From: Rhodospirillaceae bacterium
GTDB taxonomy: Bacteria; Pseudomonadota; Alphaproteobacteria; UBA828
Assembly: GCA_002728135.1 (NCBI GenBank)
Contig: PBVE01000023.1
Coordinates: 186,001 to 250,000, forward strand
Direction: 5' to 3'
DNA length: 64,000 nt
The notes under the pieces were generated by a model, which was given only the letters and a program-made list of their open reading frames with translations, was not told where the DNA came from and did not search any database. Within the stretch, counting starts at the first letter, position 1, and every line of letters begins with the position of its first letter. Made by a program: the position numbers and the translations under genes. Below are positions 6,397-43,750 of this stretch, piece by piece.

Positions 6397-6577
6397 GATA
6401 ATTTGTTTTATCCCCTTTTCGGGACCGCTTGGACAAGGCATAATAATATATTAATAGGTTAATACACTATCCTATGCTTTATACCAGCTCTAGATAGATA
6501 AAGTCTTTCAGCTGGCAATTGGCTATAACTAGGTACTCGTTTTTTATAACGAGGAACAACTATAATTGGAGGTTAAT

Positions 6578-7546
6578 ATGCAACTAGCGCGTGAAGAACT
6601 CCTACGCGCCTACCGGACAATGAAGACTATCCGGGAGTTTGAAGAGCGTCTACATGTAGATTTTGCAACAGGTGAGATCCCTGGTTTTGTTCATCTTTAC
6701 GCAGGTGAAGAAGCAAGCGGTGTTGGGGTAATGATGAACCTTGATGATCGTGATTATATTGCCAGCACTCACAGAGGACACGGACATTGTATTGCAAAAG
6801 GCTGCGATGTTGACGGAATGATGGCAGAGATATATGGCCGCACTGACGGTCTTTGTGCGGGCAAGGGTGGTTCAATGCATATTGCTGACCTTGATAAAGG
6901 CATGATGGGTGCAAATGGGATTGTAGGTGGAGGCCCGCCATTGATTTGCGGTGCAGCATTGGCGAACAAGAATCTTGGAACAGGTGGAGTAGCTGTTTGT
7001 TTTGTTGGAGATGGAGCTTTCAATCAAGGTACAAATGCTGAGGGAATGAACCTAGCAGCTGTTTGGAAATTACCTGCCATTTTTGTTTTAGAAAATAATG
7101 GATATGCTGAGACGACATCATCGAGTTGGGCAATTGGAGGAGGCAATCCAGTAGATCGAGCCAAGGGCTTTGGTTTGCCGGGAGTATCTGTCGATGGATT
7201 TGATTTTTTTGCTGTCCATGAAGCCGCGAAAGAGGCCGTAGAAAGAGCTCGTGCTGGAGATGGGCCTAGTTTTATAGAAACACGATTATCTCGATATTAT
7301 GGCCATTTTGAAGGAGACTCTCAGACATATCGTGGCAAAGATGAAGTAAAAGAAATACGGGAATCTGTGGATGCGCTATCTCAATTTCGGGAGAAAGTTA
7401 TAGGTGCAGCTTTACTCGAGTCCGATGACCTTGATTCTATAGACGGTGAAGTGGCGGAGTTAATTGACAATTCAGTTAGCAAAGCAAAAGCCTCGCCACT
7501 TCCAACTTCTGAAGATTTACTTACTGACGTATACGTATCTTACTAA
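6578..7546 (+). CDS. acoA: TPP-dependent dehydrogenase E1 component, alpha subunit (acetoin dehydrogenase type)
   Basis: 322 aa, matching AcoA length. With the beta subunit it would form the thiamine-diphosphate E1 that cleaves acetoin or decarboxylates a 2-oxo acid and passes the acyl group to lipoyl-E2. 'ASTHRGHGHCIAKG' is near residue 65, and the TPP motif 'GDGAFNQG' with 'ENN' about 30 residues later is near 143. ATG 6578 is chosen because GGAGG sits 5 bases upstream; an in-frame codon at 6566 has none. It heads a three-gene operon with the E1 beta and a fused E2. AcoABC assignment rests mainly on the hydrolase-fused E2; a pyruvate dehydrogenase role is less likely. Confidence 0.88.
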   Translation: MQLAREELLRAYRTMKTIREFEERLHVDFATGEIPGFVHLYAGEEASGVGVMMNLDDRDYIASTHRGHGHCIAKGCDVDGMMAEIYGRTDGLCAGKGGSMHIADLDKGMMGANGIVGGGPPLICGAALANKNLGTGGVAVCFVGDGAFNQGTNAEGMNLAAVWKLPAIFVLENNGYAETTSSSWAIGGGNPVDRAKGFGLPGVSVDGFDFFAVHEAAKEAVERARAGDGPSFIETRLSRYYGHFEGDSQTYRGKDEVKEIRESVDALSQFREKVIGAALLESDDLDSIDGEVAELIDNSVSKAKASPLPTSEDLLTDVYVSY

Positions 7547-7557
7547 AGGAGGGCCAA

Positions 7558-8568
7558 ATGGCTCGAAAAATTAGTTATCAACAGGCTATCAATGAAGCTC
7601 TTGACCAAGAGATGGAGCGAGATGAAACAGTTGTTATAATGGGCGAAGATGTTGCAGGTGGTCTTGGCTCTCCAGGCGAACGTGATGCTTGGGGGGGAGT
7701 TTTAGGAGTTACAAAGGGTCTGCAGCCAAAATATGGTGATGATCGTGTTTTAGATACTCCAATTACAGAGAGCGGGTTTATTGGTGCAGCGGTTGGTGCT
7801 GCTACTGCTGGCTTGCGACCAGTAGCAGAATTAATGTTTATAGATTTTATGGGGGTTTGTTTTGATCAAATCTTCAATCAGGCAGCTAAGTTCCGATATA
7901 TGTTTGGAGGCAAGGCTGAAACTCCAGTAGTAATCCGAACTATGTATGGTGCTGGACTTAGAGCTGCTGCACAGCATTCACAATGTCTGTATCCTGTTTT
8001 TACCCATATTCCAGGGCTTAAAGTAGTTACACCATCAAATCCCTACGATGCAAAGGGTCTTTTAATTCAATCCATAAGAGATAATGATCCTGTAATTTTC
8101 TGTGAGCATAAATTTCTCTATACCCTAGAAGGAGATGTGCCGGAAGAGCCTTATGCTATCCCATTTGGCGAAGCAAACATTACACGTGAAGGAGATGATG
8201 TAACAATTGTTACTCTGGGCCGTATGGTTCATATTGCAAATGAAGCTGCTGATAATCTTGCAAAGGATGGCGTAAATTGTGAGGTTGTTGATTTAAGAAC
8301 AACTTCCCCTATGGATACAGAGACTATAATTGAAAGTGTAGAAAACACTGGTAGGTTGGTTGTTCTGGATGAGGCAAACCCACGTTGCAGTATTGCAACT
8401 GATGTGTCTGCTCTAGTTGCACAAGAGGCATTCGGATCCTTAAAAGCACCAATTAAAATGGTCACTGCACCACACACTCCAGTTCCATTTTCTGATGCAT
8501 TAGAAGATATGTATATTCCCGATGCTAATCAGGTAAGTGATGCAGTTCGCTTAGTTATGGAGGCATAG
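7558..8568 (+). CDS. acoB: TPP-dependent dehydrogenase E1 component, beta subunit (acetoin dehydrogenase type)
   Basis: 336 aa, start ATG with a strong AAAGGAGGG upstream. It belongs to the transketolase-like E1 beta family: N-terminal pyrimidine-binding domain with 'VVIMGEDVAGG' (about 26) and 'DTPITESGFIGAAVGAA' (about 69), then 'FNQAAKFRYMFGG', and a C-terminal domain with 'DLRTTSPMDTETI' (about 230). It pairs with the alpha subunit encoded 11 bases upstream to make the active site. The gene is followed after 3 bases by the E2-hydrolase fusion, so translation of all three is probably linked. Confidence 0.9.
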   Translation: MARKISYQQAINEALDQEMERDETVVIMGEDVAGGLGSPGERDAWGGVLGVTKGLQPKYGDDRVLDTPITESGFIGAAVGAATAGLRPVAELMFIDFMGVCFDQIFNQAAKFRYMFGGKAETPVVIRTMYGAGLRAAAQHSQCLYPVFTHIPGLKVVTPSNPYDAKGLLIQSIRDNDPVIFCEHKFLYTLEGDVPEEPYAIPFGEANITREGDDVTIVTLGRMVHIANEAADNLAKDGVNCEVVDLRTTSPMDTETIIESVENTGRLVVLDEANPRCSIATDVSALVAQEAFGSLKAPIKMVTAPHTPVPFSDALEDMYIPDANQVSDAVRLVMEA

Positions 8569-8571
8569 CTG

Positions 8572-9687
8572 ATGTCAGGTGAAATTCACTCAATAACCAT
8601 GCCTAAATGGGGCTTGGCGATGACAGAGGGCAAGCTAGGTGAGTGGCTAGTAGAAGAGGGCGACGAAATTGAGTCAGGTGATGAGTTATTAGAGGTAGAA
8701 ACTGAAAAAATAACTGGTGCTGTTGAAGCCGCAGTCGGTGGTACAATAAGAAGGTGTGTTGGCCAGACAGGGGAAACACTAACTGTAGGAGCACTTCTCG
8801 GAGTTGTTGCAGATGGATCTATAGGTGATGAAGCAATAGACAATTTTATCTCAGACTTTCAGGAAAATTATGTCCCCCCAGAACCCGATGAGGATTCTGA
8901 GGGTTCAGGAACAGAAACCATAGATCTCAATGGAAAACAAATTCAATATGCTCAACGAGGAGAAGGTGGCATCCCAGCTATTCTTATTCACGGCTTTGGA
9001 GGAGATTTAAACAATTGGTTGTTTAGCCACGATTCGTTGGCAGAGGCTAGGGCAGTTTATGCAATTGATTTACCTGGTCATGGTGGTTCATCTAAAGAAG
9101 TTGAAGATGGTTCAATAGAATTTTTTGTATCTATTATTTTAGATTTTATGGATAATTTTGGTATAGAAAAGGCTCATTTCGTTGGTCATTCTATGGGCGG
9201 GGCTATCTCCTTGGCTTTCTCACTTAAATACTCAGAGAGAGTGTCTTCGCTTTCACTAATTGGAAGTGCTGGTCTTGGATCAGAGATTGACTCAGACTAT
9301 CTTAATGGGTTTGTTGAGGCTGATCGAAGAAAAGATATGAAATCCCAAGCTGTAAAGCTTTTTGGTGATTCCTCTCTGGTAACACGTAGTTTGGTTGAGG
9401 ATTTACTTACTTTTAAGCGTAAGGATGGTGTAAAAAAGGCCCTAACAACTATTATGTCCTCTTTTGCTCCTGACGGTGTTCAGGTAGCTGTAATGCGAGA
9501 TAATATTACAGAACTAAATATACCCGTGCAGATTATTTGGGGCTCAGAAGATAAAATCATTCCATCTGCTCATGCACATGGTTTCCCAGATTCAGTTTCC
9601 GTACTCATAGTCCCTGAAAAAGGGCACATGGTTCAAATGGAAGCTGCTAATGAAGTAAATAGGGTATTGTTAGAGCTTATGGCTTAG
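8572..9687 (+). CDS. acoC: Acetoin dehydrogenase E2-like: lipoyl domain fused to alpha/beta hydrolase
   Basis: 371 aa, almost the length of Pseudomonas AcoC. Residues 1-77 form a lipoyl domain with the modifiable Lys46 in 'EVETEKITG'. An acidic, glycine-rich linker at about 98-115 leads to an alpha/beta hydrolase fold (120-371) with an oxyanion region 'ILIHGFGGD', nucleophile elbow 'VGHSMGG' (Ser near 207) and a late His in 'EKGHM'. There is no peripheral-subunit-binding domain and no chloramphenicol-acetyltransferase-type core, so acyl transfer would be carried out by the hydrolase-like domain, as proposed for AcoC proteins. No E3 (dihydrolipoyl dehydrogenase) gene is adjacent; a shared E3 is presumed. 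Confidence 0.88.
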   Translation: MSGEIHSITMPKWGLAMTEGKLGEWLVEEGDEIESGDELLEVETEKITGAVEAAVGGTIRRCVGQTGETLTVGALLGVVADGSIGDEAIDNFISDFQENYVPPEPDEDSEGSGTETIDLNGKQIQYAQRGEGGIPAILIHGFGGDLNNWLFSHDSLAEARAVYAIDLPGHGGSSKEVEDGSIEFFVSIILDFMDNFGIEKAHFVGHSMGGAISLAFSLKYSERVSSLSLIGSAGLGSEIDSDYLNGFVEADRRKDMKSQAVKLFGDSSLVTRSLVEDLLTFKRKDGVKKALTTIMSSFAPDGVQVAVMRDNITELNIPVQIIWGSEDKIIPSAHAHGFPDSVSVLIVPEKGHMVQMEAANEVNRVLLELMA

Positions 9688-37508: not shown

Positions 37509-38171
37509 TTGGTATCTCTTAAAGTATTTTTTTATTAACCTAAATATTGGTCTGTTGAACTAGCCCTATCTAGATTTGCCCAAAGAAGGGTCTCAGTCAA
37601 TGTGCTAGTATTTAGTAATCAATCATGTAGAATCAGATACTTCCATGATACCTTTACAAGTATTAGAAAGGTAGATTTTGGTTTCCACTGAGCTTGTGGA
37701 TAACCCTGTGGGGAAGTAGGGCAAGTTGCCCTTAGGTAACTGGAAATCATAGCCTTAAACCGAAGTGCCTAAAAATTAGGCATAATTTATAAGTTATTGA
37801 AATATAATGTTTTTTTTATTGCAAGCAAGTAAAACATAAAAATATTACAAATTTCACGCTTAATTAGTCTACTGAAGACAATAAGAAGGTAGTATTGTGA
37901 ACAATATTCCTCTTTAAAGAGCAAACTTATATTGGGGGAATGCAGGAATACGTAATAATGTCAACACTTTTTCTATAATACAATTTAGTTTTCTAGAAAT
38001 AAATTTATAATCACTATATAATGAAATCGATATGTTTTTAAATTTGTCTCGTTAACTATAACATGTTTCAATATATAAAAATAATCCCAAAAAGAGATAA
38101 TTTTGCTGATGCCATTTTTAGTAAGTTATTTTTCTAGCATACTTAATCTAGTACTAAGTAGGGAGGTTTAA
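37509..38171. other. 663-base non-coding region between uvrC and the monooxygenase operon
   Basis: No supported gene. The uvrC-proximal half is less AT-rich and holds several inverted repeats plus a DnaA-box-like 9-mer (listed separately). The rest is very AT-rich up to the monooxygenase ribosome site at 38161. TATAAT occurs at 37974-37979 without a good -35. A TACTTA/TAAGTA inverted repeat (38140-38145, 38155-38160) lies directly before the ribosome site and could be an operator. Confidence 0.5.
37680..37782. other. Cluster of inverted repeats with a consensus DnaA box
   Basis: TGTGGATAA at 37695-37703 is the exact complement of the DnaA box TTATCCACA. Around it are paired segments: GGTTTCCA (37680-37687) with TGGAAATC (37741-37748, one G-T pair), CCC-TGT-GGG (37704-37712), GGGCAA-G-TTGCCC (37719-37731) and TGCCTAA-AAA-TTAGGCA (37766-37782). 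This could be a structured small RNA or a DnaA-responsive site. It lacks the multiple boxes and AT unwinding layout of an origin. Confidence 0.35.
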
Positions 38172-39668
38172 TTGGCTTTATTAGAGCGTAATGAGTGGTA
38201 CGACATAGCACGTGATACTAATTGGACTCCTACATATGTTTCTCAGGAAAATTTGTTTCCTCCTACCATGAGTGACCCATATCAAATACCTATAGATGAA
38301 TGGGAAACATTCGATGAGCCATACAAGGTATCTTTTCGTGAATATGTTAGAACACAGAGAGAAAAAGATGGCTCGGCTTATTCTGTAAAAGCTGCATTAT
38401 CTCGTTCGCGTTTTTACGATCAGGCTTGTGAAGGTTGGGCAAGCGTACTCAAACTTCATTACGGTACAGTAGCGTTAACTGAATATCAGGCATGCCAGTT
38501 TCAGGCTCGTATGGTCAGATTTGGGCCTTCACCATCTATGCGTAACATGGCTACCTTTGGTATGCTCGATGAAATGAGGCACGCTCAGTTGCAGTTGTTT
38601 TTTCCTCATGAATTAGTTCACCGTGATAGGCAATATGATTGGGCTCATGAGGCAGCTCACACTAATAATTGGGCGGTTATAGGCGGTCGTCATGCTATGG
38701 ACGATATAATGATGTGTAGGGATGCTGTAACAGGATCTTTGATGGTATCTTTTGCCTTTGAAACAGGTTTAACAAACTTGCAAATGATTGGGCTTTCTAC
38801 AGATGCTGCTAATATGGGAGATTTCACATTTTCAAATCTTATTACAAGTATTCAATCAGATGAAGCACGTCATGCCCAACTAGGTACACCTACAATCGAA
38901 ATTATGGTTAGAAACGGTTACAAAGAGGATGCTCAGAAAATATTAGATATTGCTTTTTGGCGCGTTTGGAGACTTTTTTCTGTCTCAGTTGGCATACCGA
39001 TGGATTATTATATTCCACTCGAACAACGTCACATGTCTTTCAAGGAATTTATGCATGAATGGGTAAATCGTCAGTATGTTAGGCAAGTAGAGGATTTAGG
39101 TTTAGCAAAGCCATGGTATTGGCAGCATTTCCTTGACGATATAGAAAATCATCATCATTGTCAGCAAGGTGGTATATGGTCTTGGAGACCAACAGTTTGG
39201 TGGAATCCGCCAGGAGCTGTAGGCCCTAAAGAACGCCAATGGTTGGAGAAAAAATACCCAGGATGGAATGATAGCTATGGAACATACTGGGATGTAATAA
39301 CAGAAAATCTTCTAGCTGATCGGGAGGAAAAAACTCATCCTGAATGTGTCCCGATTATTTGTAACATGTGTCAAATCCCTATTTCGAATCGTCCTGGGAA
39401 GGCTTGGAAAGCTCGTCCATATCAGTTTGAACATGAAGGTAGGCGATACAATTTTTGTACTGAACCTTGTAGGTGGATCTTCACTACAGACCCAAATAGA
39501 TATAAGGATCACGAGACAATTGTTGACAGAATGTATTCTGGTGAAATTCAACCACCTGATCTCGATGGAGTTTTGAAGTATATGGGAATAGGTGTTGTAA
39601 GCGAAGGTGGTCGGGATGGTTACAATTATCAGTGGATCGAAGGTTTTAGATCTGCTGCAGCCGAGTAA
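38172..39668 (+). CDS. Soluble di-iron monooxygenase, hydroxylase alpha subunit (TmoA-like)
   Basis: 498 aa, starting at TTG 38172 with GGGAGG 5 bases upstream. It is collinear with toluene-4-monooxygenase TmoA from the first residues ('WYDIARDTNWTPTYV'), without shifts through residue 234. All six iron ligands fall at the same numbers: Glu104, Glu134, His137 ('LDEMRHAQ'), Glu197, Glu231, His234 ('SDEARHAQ'); Thr201 is present. Pocket positions differ from my memory of TmoA: Val100, Thr103, Met176, Met180, Met205. The C-terminal YHS-like domain has four Cys (397, 400, 429, 433). It is the O2-activating subunit of a group 2 enzyme hydroxylating or epoxidising small hydrocarbons; the substrate is uncertain. 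Confidence 0.93.
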   Translation: MALLERNEWYDIARDTNWTPTYVSQENLFPPTMSDPYQIPIDEWETFDEPYKVSFREYVRTQREKDGSAYSVKAALSRSRFYDQACEGWASVLKLHYGTVALTEYQACQFQARMVRFGPSPSMRNMATFGMLDEMRHAQLQLFFPHELVHRDRQYDWAHEAAHTNNWAVIGGRHAMDDIMMCRDAVTGSLMVSFAFETGLTNLQMIGLSTDAANMGDFTFSNLITSIQSDEARHAQLGTPTIEIMVRNGYKEDAQKILDIAFWRVWRLFSVSVGIPMDYYIPLEQRHMSFKEFMHEWVNRQYVRQVEDLGLAKPWYWQHFLDDIENHHHCQQGGIWSWRPTVWWNPPGAVGPKERQWLEKKYPGWNDSYGTYWDVITENLLADREEKTHPECVPIICNMCQIPISNRPGKAWKARPYQFEHEGRRYNFCTEPCRWIFTTDPNRYKDHETIVDRMYSGEIQPPDLDGVLKYMGIGVVSEGGRDGYNYQWIEGFRSAAAE

Positions 39669-39677
39669 GATTTAAGA

Positions 39678-39953
39678 ATGGATAAATTTCCGATTCTTTC
39701 ACGTTTCCAATATGACTGCCATGTTAAAGTTGTAGAAACAGATGTGGGAGAGACAATCACGCAATTAGCTATGAATTGTGCTTCTCACTCTATAGGTATT
39801 CATGTTAAGGACCAACCTGGAAAGGTTCTTAGGGTCAGAAAAACCTCTGATACTGACGATCAGCCACCATTAAGAGGGGATATAACTGTCGGTGAAGCAG
39901 GTTTAATTATGTATGATTGTGTAGATGTATATTTTTCTGATCCTGAAAGTTAA
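39678..39953 (+). CDS. Monooxygenase hydroxylase gamma subunit (TmoB-like)
   Basis: 91 aa, ATG 9 bases after the alpha stop. TmoB proteins are about 84 aa with a ubiquitin-like beta-grasp fold; here 'FPILSRFQYDCHVKVVETDV' is followed by 'HSIGIHVKDQPGKVLRVRK' and 'ITVGEAGLIMYDCVDVYF', which fits by size, pattern and position. It is the third structural subunit of the (alpha-beta-gamma)2 hydroxylase. On sequence alone the family is weakly marked; operon position makes the call. Confidence 0.85.
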   Translation: MDKFPILSRFQYDCHVKVVETDVGETITQLAMNCASHSIGIHVKDQPGKVLRVRKTSDTDDQPPLRGDITVGEAGLIMYDCVDVYFSDPES

Positions 39954-39958
39954 TTATC

Positions 39959-40294
39959 ATGGCATTCGAGAGAGTATGTAGTCTTGATGATCTCTGGCAA
40001 GGGGAAATGGAGAACTTCGAGGTAAGCGGTACAGAAGTATTGTTGATTCATTTGGATGATGGGAGCATACATGCCATTCAGTCTATTTGTCCGCATCAAG
40101 AAGTAGAGTTGGTAAATGGTAGTCTTGAGGGAAAGGTTTTAACGTGTAGTATGCATCTATGGCAGTTTGATGTATCAAGTGGAGAAGGAATCAATCCCAC
40201 CCATGCCGAAGTAGCAAAATACCCAGTACGTGTTGATGGTGAAGATATTTTTGTTGATACAAAAGGGATAGAGCCTAAATTCACATTAGCTTAA
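39959..40294 (+). CDS. Monooxygenase Rieske-type ferredoxin (TmoC-like)
   Basis: 111 aa. Rieske 2Fe-2S ligands are Cys44 and His46 in 'SICPHQEVELVNGS' and Cys63 and His66 in 'LTCSMHLWQFD', matching the T4moC spacing C-x-H-x16-C-x2-H. The rest aligns too ('GEGINPTHAEVAKYPVRVDG'). It shuttles electrons from the reductase to the hydroxylase. Presence of a Rieske protein separates this four-component group from phenol hydroxylases and soluble methane monooxygenase, which lack one. Confidence 0.93.
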   Translation: MAFERVCSLDDLWQGEMENFEVSGTEVLLIHLDDGSIHAIQSICPHQEVELVNGSLEGKVLTCSMHLWQFDVSSGEGINPTHAEVAKYPVRVDGEDIFVDTKGIEPKFTLA

Positions 40295-40314: not shown

Positions 40315-40614
40315 GTGACTGATAATGAGCGTAGTAATTCTGTAGGGCCAGTTTTACGAACAGGTGAAGTGGCTGATGCTGTTATAGAAGCAATTCAAGA
40401 AGATAATCCAGGTAGAAAATTTGTGATTGACGATAAAGTATCATATGTAAGAATTGAGACAGAAGGTGAATGTATCATTCGTAAGGAAACTCTCAGCAAA
40501 TATATGGGCCGCCCTTTTTCAATTACTGAGCTCGAACTTGATCTTACGTCCTTCTCCGGCCGTGTAGAAACTACGGATAATCAGATAAGGTTTTTTTTGG
40601 AGCGAAGTCTCTGA
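40315..40614 (+). CDS. Monooxygenase effector/coupling protein (TmoD/MmoB family)
   Basis: 99 aa from GTG 40315 with AGGAG upstream. 'NSVGPVLRTGEVADAVIEAI' near residue 8, 'YVRIETEGECIIRKETL' near 44 and 'YMGRPFSITELELDLTSFSG' near 63 match T4moD closely. This cofactor-free protein docks on the hydroxylase over the di-iron site, tuning O2 activation and product selectivity. Position fourth in the operon matches tmoD. Confidence 0.92.
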   Translation: MTDNERSNSVGPVLRTGEVADAVIEAIQEDNPGRKFVIDDKVSYVRIETEGECIIRKETLSKYMGRPFSITELELDLTSFSGRVETTDNQIRFFLERSL

Positions 40615-40644: not shown

Positions 40645-41631
40645 TTGGCAAATGATTCAAATGAATTGAAACCATTAAAAACATGGAGTCACTTGGCAGG
40701 TCAACGTAGAAGGCCAAGCGAGTATGAGATTGTTTCGACTAATCTCCTTTGGAGTACTGACGGTGACATGCCATGGGCATTATCTCCAAATATAGATATG
40801 AATAAATGGTACCTTAAATATCGAAATCAAAGTCCATTAAAACATGAAGATTGGGATGCTTTTCGTGACCCAGATGAATTAGTATACAGAACTTATAATA
40901 TTAAGCAGGATGGCCAAGAAACCTATGTTGATGGATTGCTTGATGAGCATAACCGAAACGAGCATGATACTGGGTATGGGAAAGATTGGTTAGAATGTTT
41001 AGCAAAATCTTATACACCAGCTAGATATCTCATACATACTATGCAAATGGGCTCAGCGTATCTAGTACAAATGGTGCCTGCTAGCACGATAGAGAATTGT
41101 GCAATGTTACAGGCTGCAGATCAATTGCGTTGGATATCCCGTATCTCCTACAGAACAAAAGAACTGCAAAAGTCATTTGCGAATCTTGATTTTGGTGGGC
41201 AAGAAAGAAATCGTTGGGAAAAGGATCCTTCTTGGCAGGGCTTTCGGAAGTTAATGGAACGTACGCTCGTTACTTATGATTGGGCAGAGCATTTTGTAGC
41301 CCTTAATTTAATAGCTAAGCCAGCTATAGATGAAGCATTTATTCGTCAGCTGGGGAAAGCATCTAGGCGTAACGGAGATATGTTATTGGCTTTACTAAAT
41401 GATGCTCAGATGCTGGATAGTGAAAGATCTAGAAGATGGACCAAGGCATTAGTAGAATTTGCACTTAATATAGAAGGTAATAGAACTATCCTTGAGGAGT
41501 GGATAAAAAAATGGGAACCATTAGGAGATTCGGCCATTGAGCTCTATTGTGATGGTTTACCTGATAGTCCTGAAGCATCCTCTGAAGCTAAAATTGCTGT
41601 TAAAGAATGGCGGCAATCAATAGGGCTTTAA
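40645..41631 (+). CDS. Soluble di-iron monooxygenase, hydroxylase beta subunit (TmoE-like)
   Basis: 328 aa (TmoE is 327), starting at TTG with a strong AAGGAGG upstream. The collinear blocks include 'KTWSHLAGQRRRPSEYEIVS' near residue 8, 'LVYRTYNIKQDGQETYVDGL' near 80, 'SAYLVQMVPASTIENC' near 138, 'LRWISRISYRTKEL' and the C-terminal 'VKEWRQSIGL'. It lacks the iron ligands of the alpha subunit and has a scaffold role in the hydroxylase. Confidence 0.93.
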   Translation: MANDSNELKPLKTWSHLAGQRRRPSEYEIVSTNLLWSTDGDMPWALSPNIDMNKWYLKYRNQSPLKHEDWDAFRDPDELVYRTYNIKQDGQETYVDGLLDEHNRNEHDTGYGKDWLECLAKSYTPARYLIHTMQMGSAYLVQMVPASTIENCAMLQAADQLRWISRISYRTKELQKSFANLDFGGQERNRWEKDPSWQGFRKLMERTLVTYDWAEHFVALNLIAKPAIDEAFIRQLGKASRRNGDMLLALLNDAQMLDSERSRRWTKALVEFALNIEGNRTILEEWIKKWEPLGDSAIELYCDGLPDSPEASSEAKIAVKEWRQSIGL

Positions 41632-41651: not shown

Positions 41652-42659
41652 ATGCCTCGAATTACTATTGAAACAGAAGAATCAAGTTATTTATGTGATC
41701 AAGACGATACTCTTCTTCGTGCTGCTCTTCGTGAGGGTTTAGGGTTTCCTTATGAATGTAACGTAGGATCATGTGGAATGTGCCGATATCAGCTTTTATC
41801 AGGCACAGTTGAGCAACTCTGGCTAGATGCTCCTGCTATTAATCCAAGAGATAAGAAGAAACAACGGATGCTAGGTTGTCAGACTAGGCCAACTAGCGAT
41901 TGTAGGATTAAAATTAGAACAAACTCTGTTGACAAAGAAATTGATCCTCCAAAAAAGTTTGCTGCCAAATTAGTCAAGATTACGCACCTGACTCATGATA
42001 TGGCAGAATTTAAGTTTTTTTCATATACACCGCCAAAATTTTTACCCGGTCAGTATGCTTTATTAAATTTGCCGGGTGTAGAAGGTGTACGTGCTTTATC
42101 GATGAGTAATATGGTTAATTCAGATGGTTATTGGTGTTTTATTGTAAAACGAGTGAAAGGCGGCAAGGGAACATTTTGGTTTTTTGATAGAGCAGCCATA
42201 GGAGATCAAATTATTATCGATGGACCTTATGGCCATGCATGGCTCAGGATCAATAGTGAACGCCCCATTATTTGTTTGGCTGGAGGGGCTGGTATTGGCG
42301 CAATGCTATCTATTGCCTCTGGATATTACAAAAAAACCTTAGCACAGTCTTCCTTGAGGCTTTATTATGGATGCCGAACATCAAGAGATATTATACATAA
42401 AGATTATGTGGTAGATACCATTCGTTCCTCTGCAGAAATTATATACAGTAATATTGTTTCTGAACCAGAATCAAGCTGGACAGGCAATAAGGGTATGCTG
42501 GACAAATTTTTATTTGAGAGTTTTGAGGGCAAAGAAGTTTATAAAAGTTTTGATTATTATATGGCTGGCCCACCACAGATGATAGAAAGTTTGCGTAGAG
42601 GTTTGATCATAGAACGTCAAGTCCCAATAGAAAATATCCGTTATGACCAATTTTATTAG
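41652..42659 (+). CDS. Monooxygenase NADH reductase, 2Fe-2S/FAD (TmoF-like)
   Basis: 335 aa. The N-terminal plant-type ferredoxin has Cys36, Cys41, Cys44 ('CNVGSCGMC') and Cys76. An FNR-type FAD domain follows ('PGQYALLNLPGV', 'RALSMSN' near residue 150), then an NAD domain with 'IICLAGGAGIGAMLSIA' near 210 and 'DYYMAGPPQMIESL' near 300. It feeds electrons from NADH to the Rieske protein. Sixth and last of the tmo-ordered genes; 35 bases separate it from the SDR gene. Confidence 0.93.
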   Translation: MPRITIETEESSYLCDQDDTLLRAALREGLGFPYECNVGSCGMCRYQLLSGTVEQLWLDAPAINPRDKKKQRMLGCQTRPTSDCRIKIRTNSVDKEIDPPKKFAAKLVKITHLTHDMAEFKFFSYTPPKFLPGQYALLNLPGVEGVRALSMSNMVNSDGYWCFIVKRVKGGKGTFWFFDRAAIGDQIIIDGPYGHAWLRINSERPIICLAGGAGIGAMLSIASGYYKKTLAQSSLRLYYGCRTSRDIIHKDYVVDTIRSSAEIIYSNIVSEPESSWTGNKGMLDKFLFESFEGKEVYKSFDYYMAGPPQMIESLRRGLIIERQVPIENIRYDQFY

Positions 42660-42694: not shown

Positions 42695-43750
42695 ATGGCA
42701 AAAAATAAAGCTCTGGTTATCGGGGGGTTGGGTGTAATTGGCCGCAACTTGATCAATCATCTTTCCACCCTTGAAGATTGGGACATTACTGCTGTTTCGA
42801 GGCGTGAACCAGATCAAGAAATGGCAAAAAAAGCTAAATACATATCATGCGATTTACTTGATATGAAACAAACTGAAAATAAATTTTCATCTCTAAGTGA
42901 TATTACTCACGTATTCTGTTGTGCATTACATGGAGGTATAGATGCTACAAATACGGAGCCAAATAAACTACTTGTTGCAAATCCCGTTGAGGCCATATCT
43001 AATATTTCTAAAGATTTGCAGCTTGTAGTTCTACAGGAGGGTAGCAAGGCATATGGACGTCAGTTAGGTCCGTTTAAAACACCCGCCTTTGAGAGTGACT
43101 CTCGCCATATGCCACCAAATTTTTACTATGACCAAGAAGATTTTTTGATCGAATTTCAAAAAGGGAAAAATTGGACATGGTCTGTTTTGAGGCCAGAGGC
43201 AGTTTGTGGTTTTGCTGTTGGAAATCCAATGAATTTAATAATGTGTTTTGGTGTATATGCGGCTATTTCTAAAGAGCTCGGAATGCCATTGAAATATCCT
43301 GGTGAGATAGGTGGCTTTGAAGCAATTAATCAGGTTACGGATTCTGGATTATTGGCTCGAATGACTGTGTGGGCTGCAACAAGTCAAAATGCAGGAAATG
43401 AGATATTTAATATCACAAATGGAGATGGTTTCAGATATATTAACGTATGGTCAGATTGGGCTGCTCATTTTGGTATGGAGGTTGGACAACCGCAGCGTAT
43501 TATATCATCTGACGTCATGCCTGATAAAGGAAGAATTTGGGAGCAAATAGTTGAGAAAAACAATCTTTTAAGGCTCCCTTACGACAAGACAGCAGGTTGG
43601 CCATACTTTGACTTCAATATGGATACAAGTTGGGATGTATTAATGTCTGATGCCAAGCGAATAGATAGGGGGTTTACTGAGATAGTAGATACAGAGGAGA
43701 TGTTTCTTAGTCTTTTTTCTGAGTTTCGCGTCAGAAAAGTACTCCCGTGA
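42695..43750 (+). CDS. PRISE-family SDR (progesterone 5-beta-reductase/iridoid synthase-like)
   Basis: 351 aa, ATG with GGGAGGAAG upstream, apparently the last gene of the monooxygenase operon. Rossmann motif 'LVIGGLGVIGRNLI' (7-20). The PRISE signatures are present: Lys118 in 'LQEGSKAYG' and Tyr145 in 'NFYYDQEDFL', equivalent to the catalytic Lys/Tyr pair, followed by 'WSVLRPEAVCGFAVGNPMN'. Characterised members reduce the C=C of enones or enals with NAD(P)H. Here it may act on an oxidation product of the monooxygenase; that link is inferred from operon position. Confidence 0.85.
   Translation: MAKNKALVIGGLGVIGRNLINHLSTLEDWDITAVSRREPDQEMAKKAKYISCDLLDMKQTENKFSSLSDITHVFCCALHGGIDATNTEPNKLLVANPVEAISNISKDLQLVVLQEGSKAYGRQLGPFKTPAFESDSRHMPPNFYYDQEDFLIEFQKGKNWTWSVLRPEAVCGFAVGNPMNLIMCFGVYAAISKELGMPLKYPGEIGGFEAINQVTDSGLLARMTVWAATSQNAGNEIFNITNGDGFRYINVWSDWAAHFGMEVGQPQRIISSDVMPDKGRIWEQIVEKNNLLRLPYDKTAGWPYFDFNMDTSWDVLMSDAKRIDRGFTEIVDTEEMFLSLFSEFRVRKVLP

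Follow-up and report, generated by a model that had tools for sequence, protein, structure and literature searches.

Genes of the oxygenase locus

In the window (the whole stretch of 64,000 nucleotides that was analysed), we found a complete set of six oxygenase genes, each with a Pfam match, followed by a gene of the PRISE family (Table 1). The gene order was alpha-gamma-Rieske-effector-beta-reductase-PRISE, with gaps of 5-35 bp, and the operon was flanked by uvrC and the gene for formate-THF ligase (fhs). No second SDIMO was found in the window's genome, so the oxygenase of this operon was the only one. An acetoin-dehydrogenase-like operon, recognised from translations only, was located at 6566-9687 of the window (E1 alpha, E1 beta and a lipoyl domain fused to an alpha/beta hydrolase); it had no evident link to the oxygenase.

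Table 1. Features of the oxygenase operon and of the alpha subunit pocket (window positions)
Feature	Position	Strand	Evidence or remark
Shine-Dalgarno-like GGGAGG ahead of alpha TTG	38161..38166	+	sequence; orthologue starts
TmoA/TouA-type alpha (diiron hydroxylase subunit) of 498 aa, starting with TTG	38172..39668	+	PDB matches 1t0q/3dhg, E<1e-190
Codon 100, Val	38469..38471	+	Ile in TmoA/TouA; Val in TomA3
Codon 103, Thr	38478..38480	+	Gly TmoA, Glu TouA, Val XamoA; most labile pocket site, 18 changes
Codon 176, Met	38697..38699	+	Phe in TmoA/TouA; M/F/I/L within clade
Codon 180, Met	38709..38711	+	Ile TmoA; Met TouA and XamoA
Codon 200, Leu	38769..38771	+	Phe TmoA/TouA; Leu TomA3/DmpN; clade-signature site
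Codon 201, catalytic Thr, kept	38772..38774	+	alignment
Codon 205, Met	38784..38786	+	Phe in 47/47 relatives outside clade, Met/Leu in 21/21 inside
Codon 229, Ser	38856..38858	+	Thr TmoA/TouA; Ser TomA3/DmpN; clade-signature site
Gamma subunit, TmoB type	39678..39953	+	Pfam TmoB, E=4.8e-17
Rieske [2Fe-2S] ferredoxin, TmoC type	39959..40294	+	Pfam Rieske; motif CPH...CSMH
Effector/coupling protein, TmoD type	40315..40614	+	Pfam MmoB_DmpM, E=1.1e-28
Beta subunit, TmoE type	40645..41631	+	Pfam Phenol_Hydrox, E=2e-68
NADH reductase, TmoF type (Fer2, FAD, NAD domains)	41652..42659	+	Pfam
PRISE-family SDR (iridoid synthase/progesterone 5-beta-reductase-like enone reductase)	42695..43750	+	Pfam PRISE, E=4e-19

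The alpha product contained the Pfam domains Phenol_Hydrox and YHS, and no named NCBIfam family matched it. A wrong start codon or frame was ruled out, since GGGAGG preceded the TTG and eight alpha orthologues had an ATG at the same position. Matches in an upstream promoter scan were no commoner than in shuffles. The AlphaFold model (pLDDT 84) gave its best matches to 3dhg and 1t0q (TM 0.92), which confirmed the fold, while an overall rmsd of 6.7 A restricted side-chain conclusions. As the preliminary description of this DNA had stated, the iron ligands and Thr201 were kept: all six ligands (E104, E134, H137, E197, E231 and H234) were present. N202 and Q228 were also retained, and together with Thr201 they form the catalytic triad (PMC4200526). 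The window alpha is the hydroxylase subunit of a TmoA/TouA-type four-component alkene/aromatic monooxygenase (SDIMO).

TouA, the toluene/o-xylene monooxygenase (ToMO) hydroxylase of Pseudomonas sp. OX1 (PDB 1t0q), was the same subunit with the same length and fold, was about 56% identical over residues 1-470, and had the diiron ligands, T201 and Met180 in common with the window alpha. Unlike the latter, it had I100, E103, F176, L192, F200 and F205, and the known enzyme was surrounded by a catabolic catechol pathway. TmoA, the toluene 4-monooxygenase (T4MO) hydroxylase of Pseudomonas mendocina KR1 (PDB 3dhg), which had the same six-component gene set, was about 55% identical over residues 1-470. 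A gapless alignment to TmoA had been claimed through residue 234, and the shared numbering extended even further, over residues 1-469. The TmoA sequence used here was identical to the 500 residues of PDB 3dhg, so that the pocket residues cited for TmoA in that description (I100, G103, F176, I180 and F205) were right, and the alignment confirmed V100, T103, M176, M180 and M205 in the window. The span given for this pocket, 38469-38792, ran from the first base of codon 100 to the last base of codon 207. Additional departures from TmoA, absent from that account, were found at 192 (V), 200 (L), 206 (I), 229 (S), 272 (S) and 285 (Q).

A separate clade and its pocket residues

A tree built from 67 alphas placed the window sequence within a clade of 21 members (support 100/100), all from one aquatic alphaproteobacterial family. 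The sister group consisted of other alphaproteobacterial sequences, and the clade was separate from TmoA, TouA, XamoA and the IsoA-like protein. A further split (100/98) put the window, in its own clade of 21, on the TmoA/TouA side and away from IsoA/XamoA, and an earlier 53-row tree agreed. Such alphas were present in 17 of the 21 genomes of the window's family and in 3 of 399 genomes sampled across the phylum, the window's own among the three, although the second count was made with a stricter E-value cut-off. Judged from these sequence comparisons, the alpha represents a distinct, new TmoA-type subclade confined to one aquatic alphaproteobacterial family.

The closest relative (L033, PAWF01000010.1) was titled Gammaproteobacteria but matched G001, a genome of the window's genus, and was probably a mislabelled MAG. 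The family of G001 and the window was otherwise made up of alphaproteobacterial MAGs.

We considered the five pocket substitutions as one conserved signature and rejected this idea: sites 100, 103, 176 and 180 changed 9-18 times, and the window's sister at 87% identity (A_G004) had Phe at 176. The numbers of changes required on the tree of 67 alphas were 9 at site 100, 18 at 103, 11 at 176, 11 at 180 and 14 at 285, and these sites vary freely across the alpha family. Of the 21 clade members, 13 differed from TmoA at all five positions versus none of the 47 other alphas, eight of which differed at four. Position 205 was the sole one of the five that separated the clade cleanly from other alphas, being Met in 20 members and Leu in one, and it required two changes. 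Moreover, 122 sites showed a conservation of 90% or more among the other alphas, and of these only four interpretable ones, 160, 200, 205 and 229, were replaced in the clade; a fifth flagged column, 498, had one sequence per group and was disregarded. Sites 229 and 200 required two and four changes, respectively, and together with 205 they adjoined or surrounded Thr201/Asn202/Gln228 in the sequence. Phe205 lies in the substrate pocket, a structural role known for T4MO/ToMO. Since all alphas of the tree outside the clade had Phe here and every clade member had lost it, the replacement was not drift. Outside the TmoA-type tree, the distant alkene-group alpha of Nocardioides JS614 had Val at this site. 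We did not find residue 205 described as a clade marker in the open-licence papers that were covered.

Several of the remaining pocket residues were known from other oxygenases. V100, V192, S193, L200, L203 and S229 were shared with TomA3 (toluene ortho-monooxygenase, TOM, of Burkholderia vietnamiensis G4) or DmpN, and V106 of TOM corresponds to I100 of T4MO (review PMC3962191). M176 was common to the window and the annotated phenol hydroxylase DmpN only, not TomA3, and by alignment the solved phenol hydroxylase PHN had Ile at 100, Phe at 176 and Leu at 200. On a self-chosen list of 15 pocket sites, 5 of the 8 window departures from TmoA/TouA matched TomA3/DmpN, versus 14 of the 68 at other positions between residues 85 and 299, a comparison that is suggestive rather than a formal test. 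On the other hand, TomA3 and DmpN differed from the window in Phe205 and Leu103, were about 26-28% identical to it, and belonged to a system without a Rieske protein; the window operon, with its Rieske gene, therefore fell outside the phenol hydroxylase/TOM group. At the sequence level, its pocket is part phenol-hydroxylase/TOM-like and part new.

Substitutions at some of these positions have been studied in the known enzymes. Hydroxylation of the bulky 2-phenylethanol was increased 85-fold in T4MO I100A/D285Q, and p-tyrosol was produced by the ToMO variants F176I/L/T (PMC3962191). In ToMO E103G/F176A the para site was opened to large substituents and 2-indanol was accommodated (PMC4411060). 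By analogy, V100 and Q285 of the window would be consistent with a pocket for larger substrates.

Candidate substrates and the PRISE reductase

The product of the last operon gene contained the NFYYxxED motif and the catalytic Lys/Tyr (the Lys by alignment) that mark PRISE family members, and it matched the PDB iridoid synthase with E=1.9e-49. It was a clear homologue of the plant enzymes iridoid synthase (5coa) and progesterone 5-beta-reductase (2v6f), and PRISEs are described as reducing the activated C=C bond in 1,4-enones (PMC11643720). Orthologues of 78-89% identity were found in genera g1, g2, g4 and g6, and the gene adjoined the oxygenase genes in seven genomes from three genera (G000, G001, G004, G006, G009, G016 and G018). 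The link between the two was not universal, since the PRISE orthologues of genus g2 were located away from the oxygenase and genus g5 had the oxygenase without a PRISE orthologue. None of the open-licence papers that were covered described a diiron monooxygenase operon paired with a bacterial PRISE. A second PRISE paralogue on contig C7 of the window's genome (L154:8891-9934) was 46% identical to the operon PRISE, and a copy of this second kind was present in most genomes of the window's family.

The explanation that we favoured, with a probability of roughly one half, was a clade-specific TmoA/TouA-type monooxygenase for which toluene is an improbable growth substrate and whose product would later become an enone reduced by the PRISE. 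By analogy with T4MO and ToMO, NADH would supply electrons that reach the diiron site by way of the reductase and then the Rieske protein, and this site would activate O2 in the standard way as in T4MO. With the tunnel shut by the effector, a single oxygen atom would be inserted into a small hydrophobic substrate. The catalytic and redox residues that were checked were all present. Met205, together with Val100, Met176, Val192, Leu200 and Ser229, would reshape the pocket and might thereby influence the choice of substrate or its orientation. The oxygenated product would then be converted at a later step to an alpha,beta-unsaturated carbonyl, and the PRISE would reduce its C=C bond. The likely substrate was a volatile that is small and hydrophobic, such as an alkene, an alicyclic compound or a terpenoid, and the oxygenase was probably coupled to enone reduction; the PRISE pairing hinted at such a volatile somewhat more than at a catechol route. 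We advance only tentatively the more specific proposal that in aquatic alphaproteobacteria a lineage-specific monooxygenase marked by Met205 and the iridoid-synthase-like PRISE act in series, the former oxygenating a volatile or a terpenoid, a route undescribed for this enzyme family.

In the window's genome (G000, 91% complete) and its congener G001 (94%), we found no intradiol dioxygenase (PF00775), no match over the cut-off for catechol 2,3-dioxygenase (TIGR03211) and no IsoI-like GST, so the downstream catechol cleavage genes that would accompany a toluene monooxygenase were not found in either. Likewise, no aromatic-catabolism gene was found near the operon. These absences, provisional since the genome was 91% complete, argued against growth on toluene or isoprene via the known routes, and toluene was probably not the growth substrate. 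The preliminary description had suggested a substrate other than toluene on the basis of the pocket residues. Replacement of F205 across the clade and the lack of the expected catechol dioxygenases agreed with this, and it was likely for the physiology, yet the residues alone do not show it: variants of T4MO at I100 and of ToMO at F176/E103 keep aromatic activity with shifted selectivity (PMC3962191, PMC4411060), which made the step from residues to "not toluene" too strong. Furthermore, the contrary evidence that the description itself had named, the same residues in characterised toluene hydroxylases, was found in part: V100 and M180 are each found in such an enzyme (Met180 in ToMO, Val at the equivalent of 100 in TOM), whereas M205 and T103 occurred in none of those compared.

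Thus, it was possible, though less probable than the reading with enone reduction, that the operon encoded an ordinary aromatic monooxygenase (toluene/benzene/phenol-range) in which the substitutions tune regioselectivity or reflect drift and the PRISE is an unrelated passenger. The closest structural relatives were ToMO and T4MO, position 180 equalled that of ToMO, and the match of V100, V192, L200 and S229 to TOM/phenol hydroxylase kept an aromatic substrate in consideration, as did the activity of the engineered variants on aromatics and the catechol 2,3-dioxygenase encoded by some relatives of genus g6. Against it were the clade-wide loss of an otherwise invariant F205 and the gene absences in the two genomes and around the operon.

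The isoprene and short-alkene monooxygenases (IsoMO/XAMO-like) had the same four-component architecture, and the TmoA, XamoA and IsoA groups were neighbours. As the stand-in for IsoA we used an IsoA-like alpha (L111) clustered with GST, SDR, aldehyde dehydrogenase and CoA-transferase genes, these four having been named from ORF translations rather than by family search; in the plasmid collection, no IsoA from a named isoprene degrader was among the inspected matches. In the comparison with isoprene and alkene alphas that had been proposed, XamoA had Met180, like the window, and Val103. XamoA and the IsoA-like protein kept F176 and F205, had D141 and T192 in contrast to Q141 and V192 of the window, formed a separate 100/100 clade at 44-45% identity to it, and were accompanied by genes of a glutathione or CoM epoxide pathway. 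The window operon had uvrC and fhs as neighbours instead of isoGHIJ/aldH (GST, SDR, CoA-transferase). This identity, which we held improbable, was rejected on the tree, the residues and the missing GST.

A biosynthetic rather than catabolic operon, in which oxygenase and PRISE would tailor a terpenoid or polyketide-like metabolite, was similarly unlikely. In genus g2 and in contigs of genus g6 the gene after the PRISE encoded a 2OG-Fe(II) dioxygenase, with genes for a glutamine-synthetase-like ligase and for EamA transporters nearby, and no dedicated catabolic genes were adjacent. However, no scaffold-forming enzyme such as a terpene or polyketide synthase was found beside these genes, and in the window the gene after the PRISE was that of formate-THF ligase. 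A 62% homologue of the 2OG-Fe(II) dioxygenase was encoded on another contig of the window's genome.

A natural clade in which Phe205 is always replaced offers a ready-made experiment on substrate selection, which has been named an open question in the isoprene-monooxygenase literature (PMC12917321). Since these alphas were found in 17 of 21 family genomes as compared with 3 of 399 across the phylum (at the stricter cut-off), their substrate may matter for aquatic carbon or trace-gas turnover. The label "toluene monooxygenase", which databases can be expected to give these genes, is probably misleading.

Related loci in other genomes

The PRISE gene, the 2OG-Fe(II) dioxygenase, the glutamine-synthetase-like ligase and the EamA transporters were conserved together, with or without the oxygenase, at L149:306-8287, L152, L153 and L080, and this neighbourhood looks like one pathway.

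Unusual arrangements of the oxygenase genes were found in two genera. In genus g2 (L041:5259-10602 and L042:544-5887) a tandem operon contained alpha, gamma, alpha', gamma', Rieske and effector genes and a single beta. Both alphas kept all iron ligands, and the operon could encode a mixed alpha/alpha' hydroxylase or two alternative hydroxylases sharing the beta subunit. In genus g5 (L061:7893-13498) divergent half-operons were located on opposite strands, one with alpha-gamma-beta and the other with alpha-gamma-Rieske-effector without beta, as if the two alphas shared components.

In another genome of the window's family (G017), an alpha of the IsoA/XamoA clade on the reverse strand (L071:9204-10694) adjoined a GST gene. 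This GST gene was 81% identical to the one in an iso-like cluster of the alphaproteobacterium G476 (L138:7109-16401), which contained beta, effector, Rieske and alpha genes together with genes for a GST, an SDR, aldehyde dehydrogenases and CoA-transferase. The aquatic family may thus possess genes for isoprene degradation. Genes for hydantoinases A and B adjoined B-type oxygenase genes at L064:11810-15799, and hydantoinase homologues were located near the oxygenase loci L068, L069, L070 and L075. Finally, loci L139-L143 came from another alphaproteobacterial genus (f174, g304), whose genomes were small at 1.6-2.3 Mb. Four of these genomes carried TmoA-like alphas that formed a clade of their own, with I176 and either N or T at 192.
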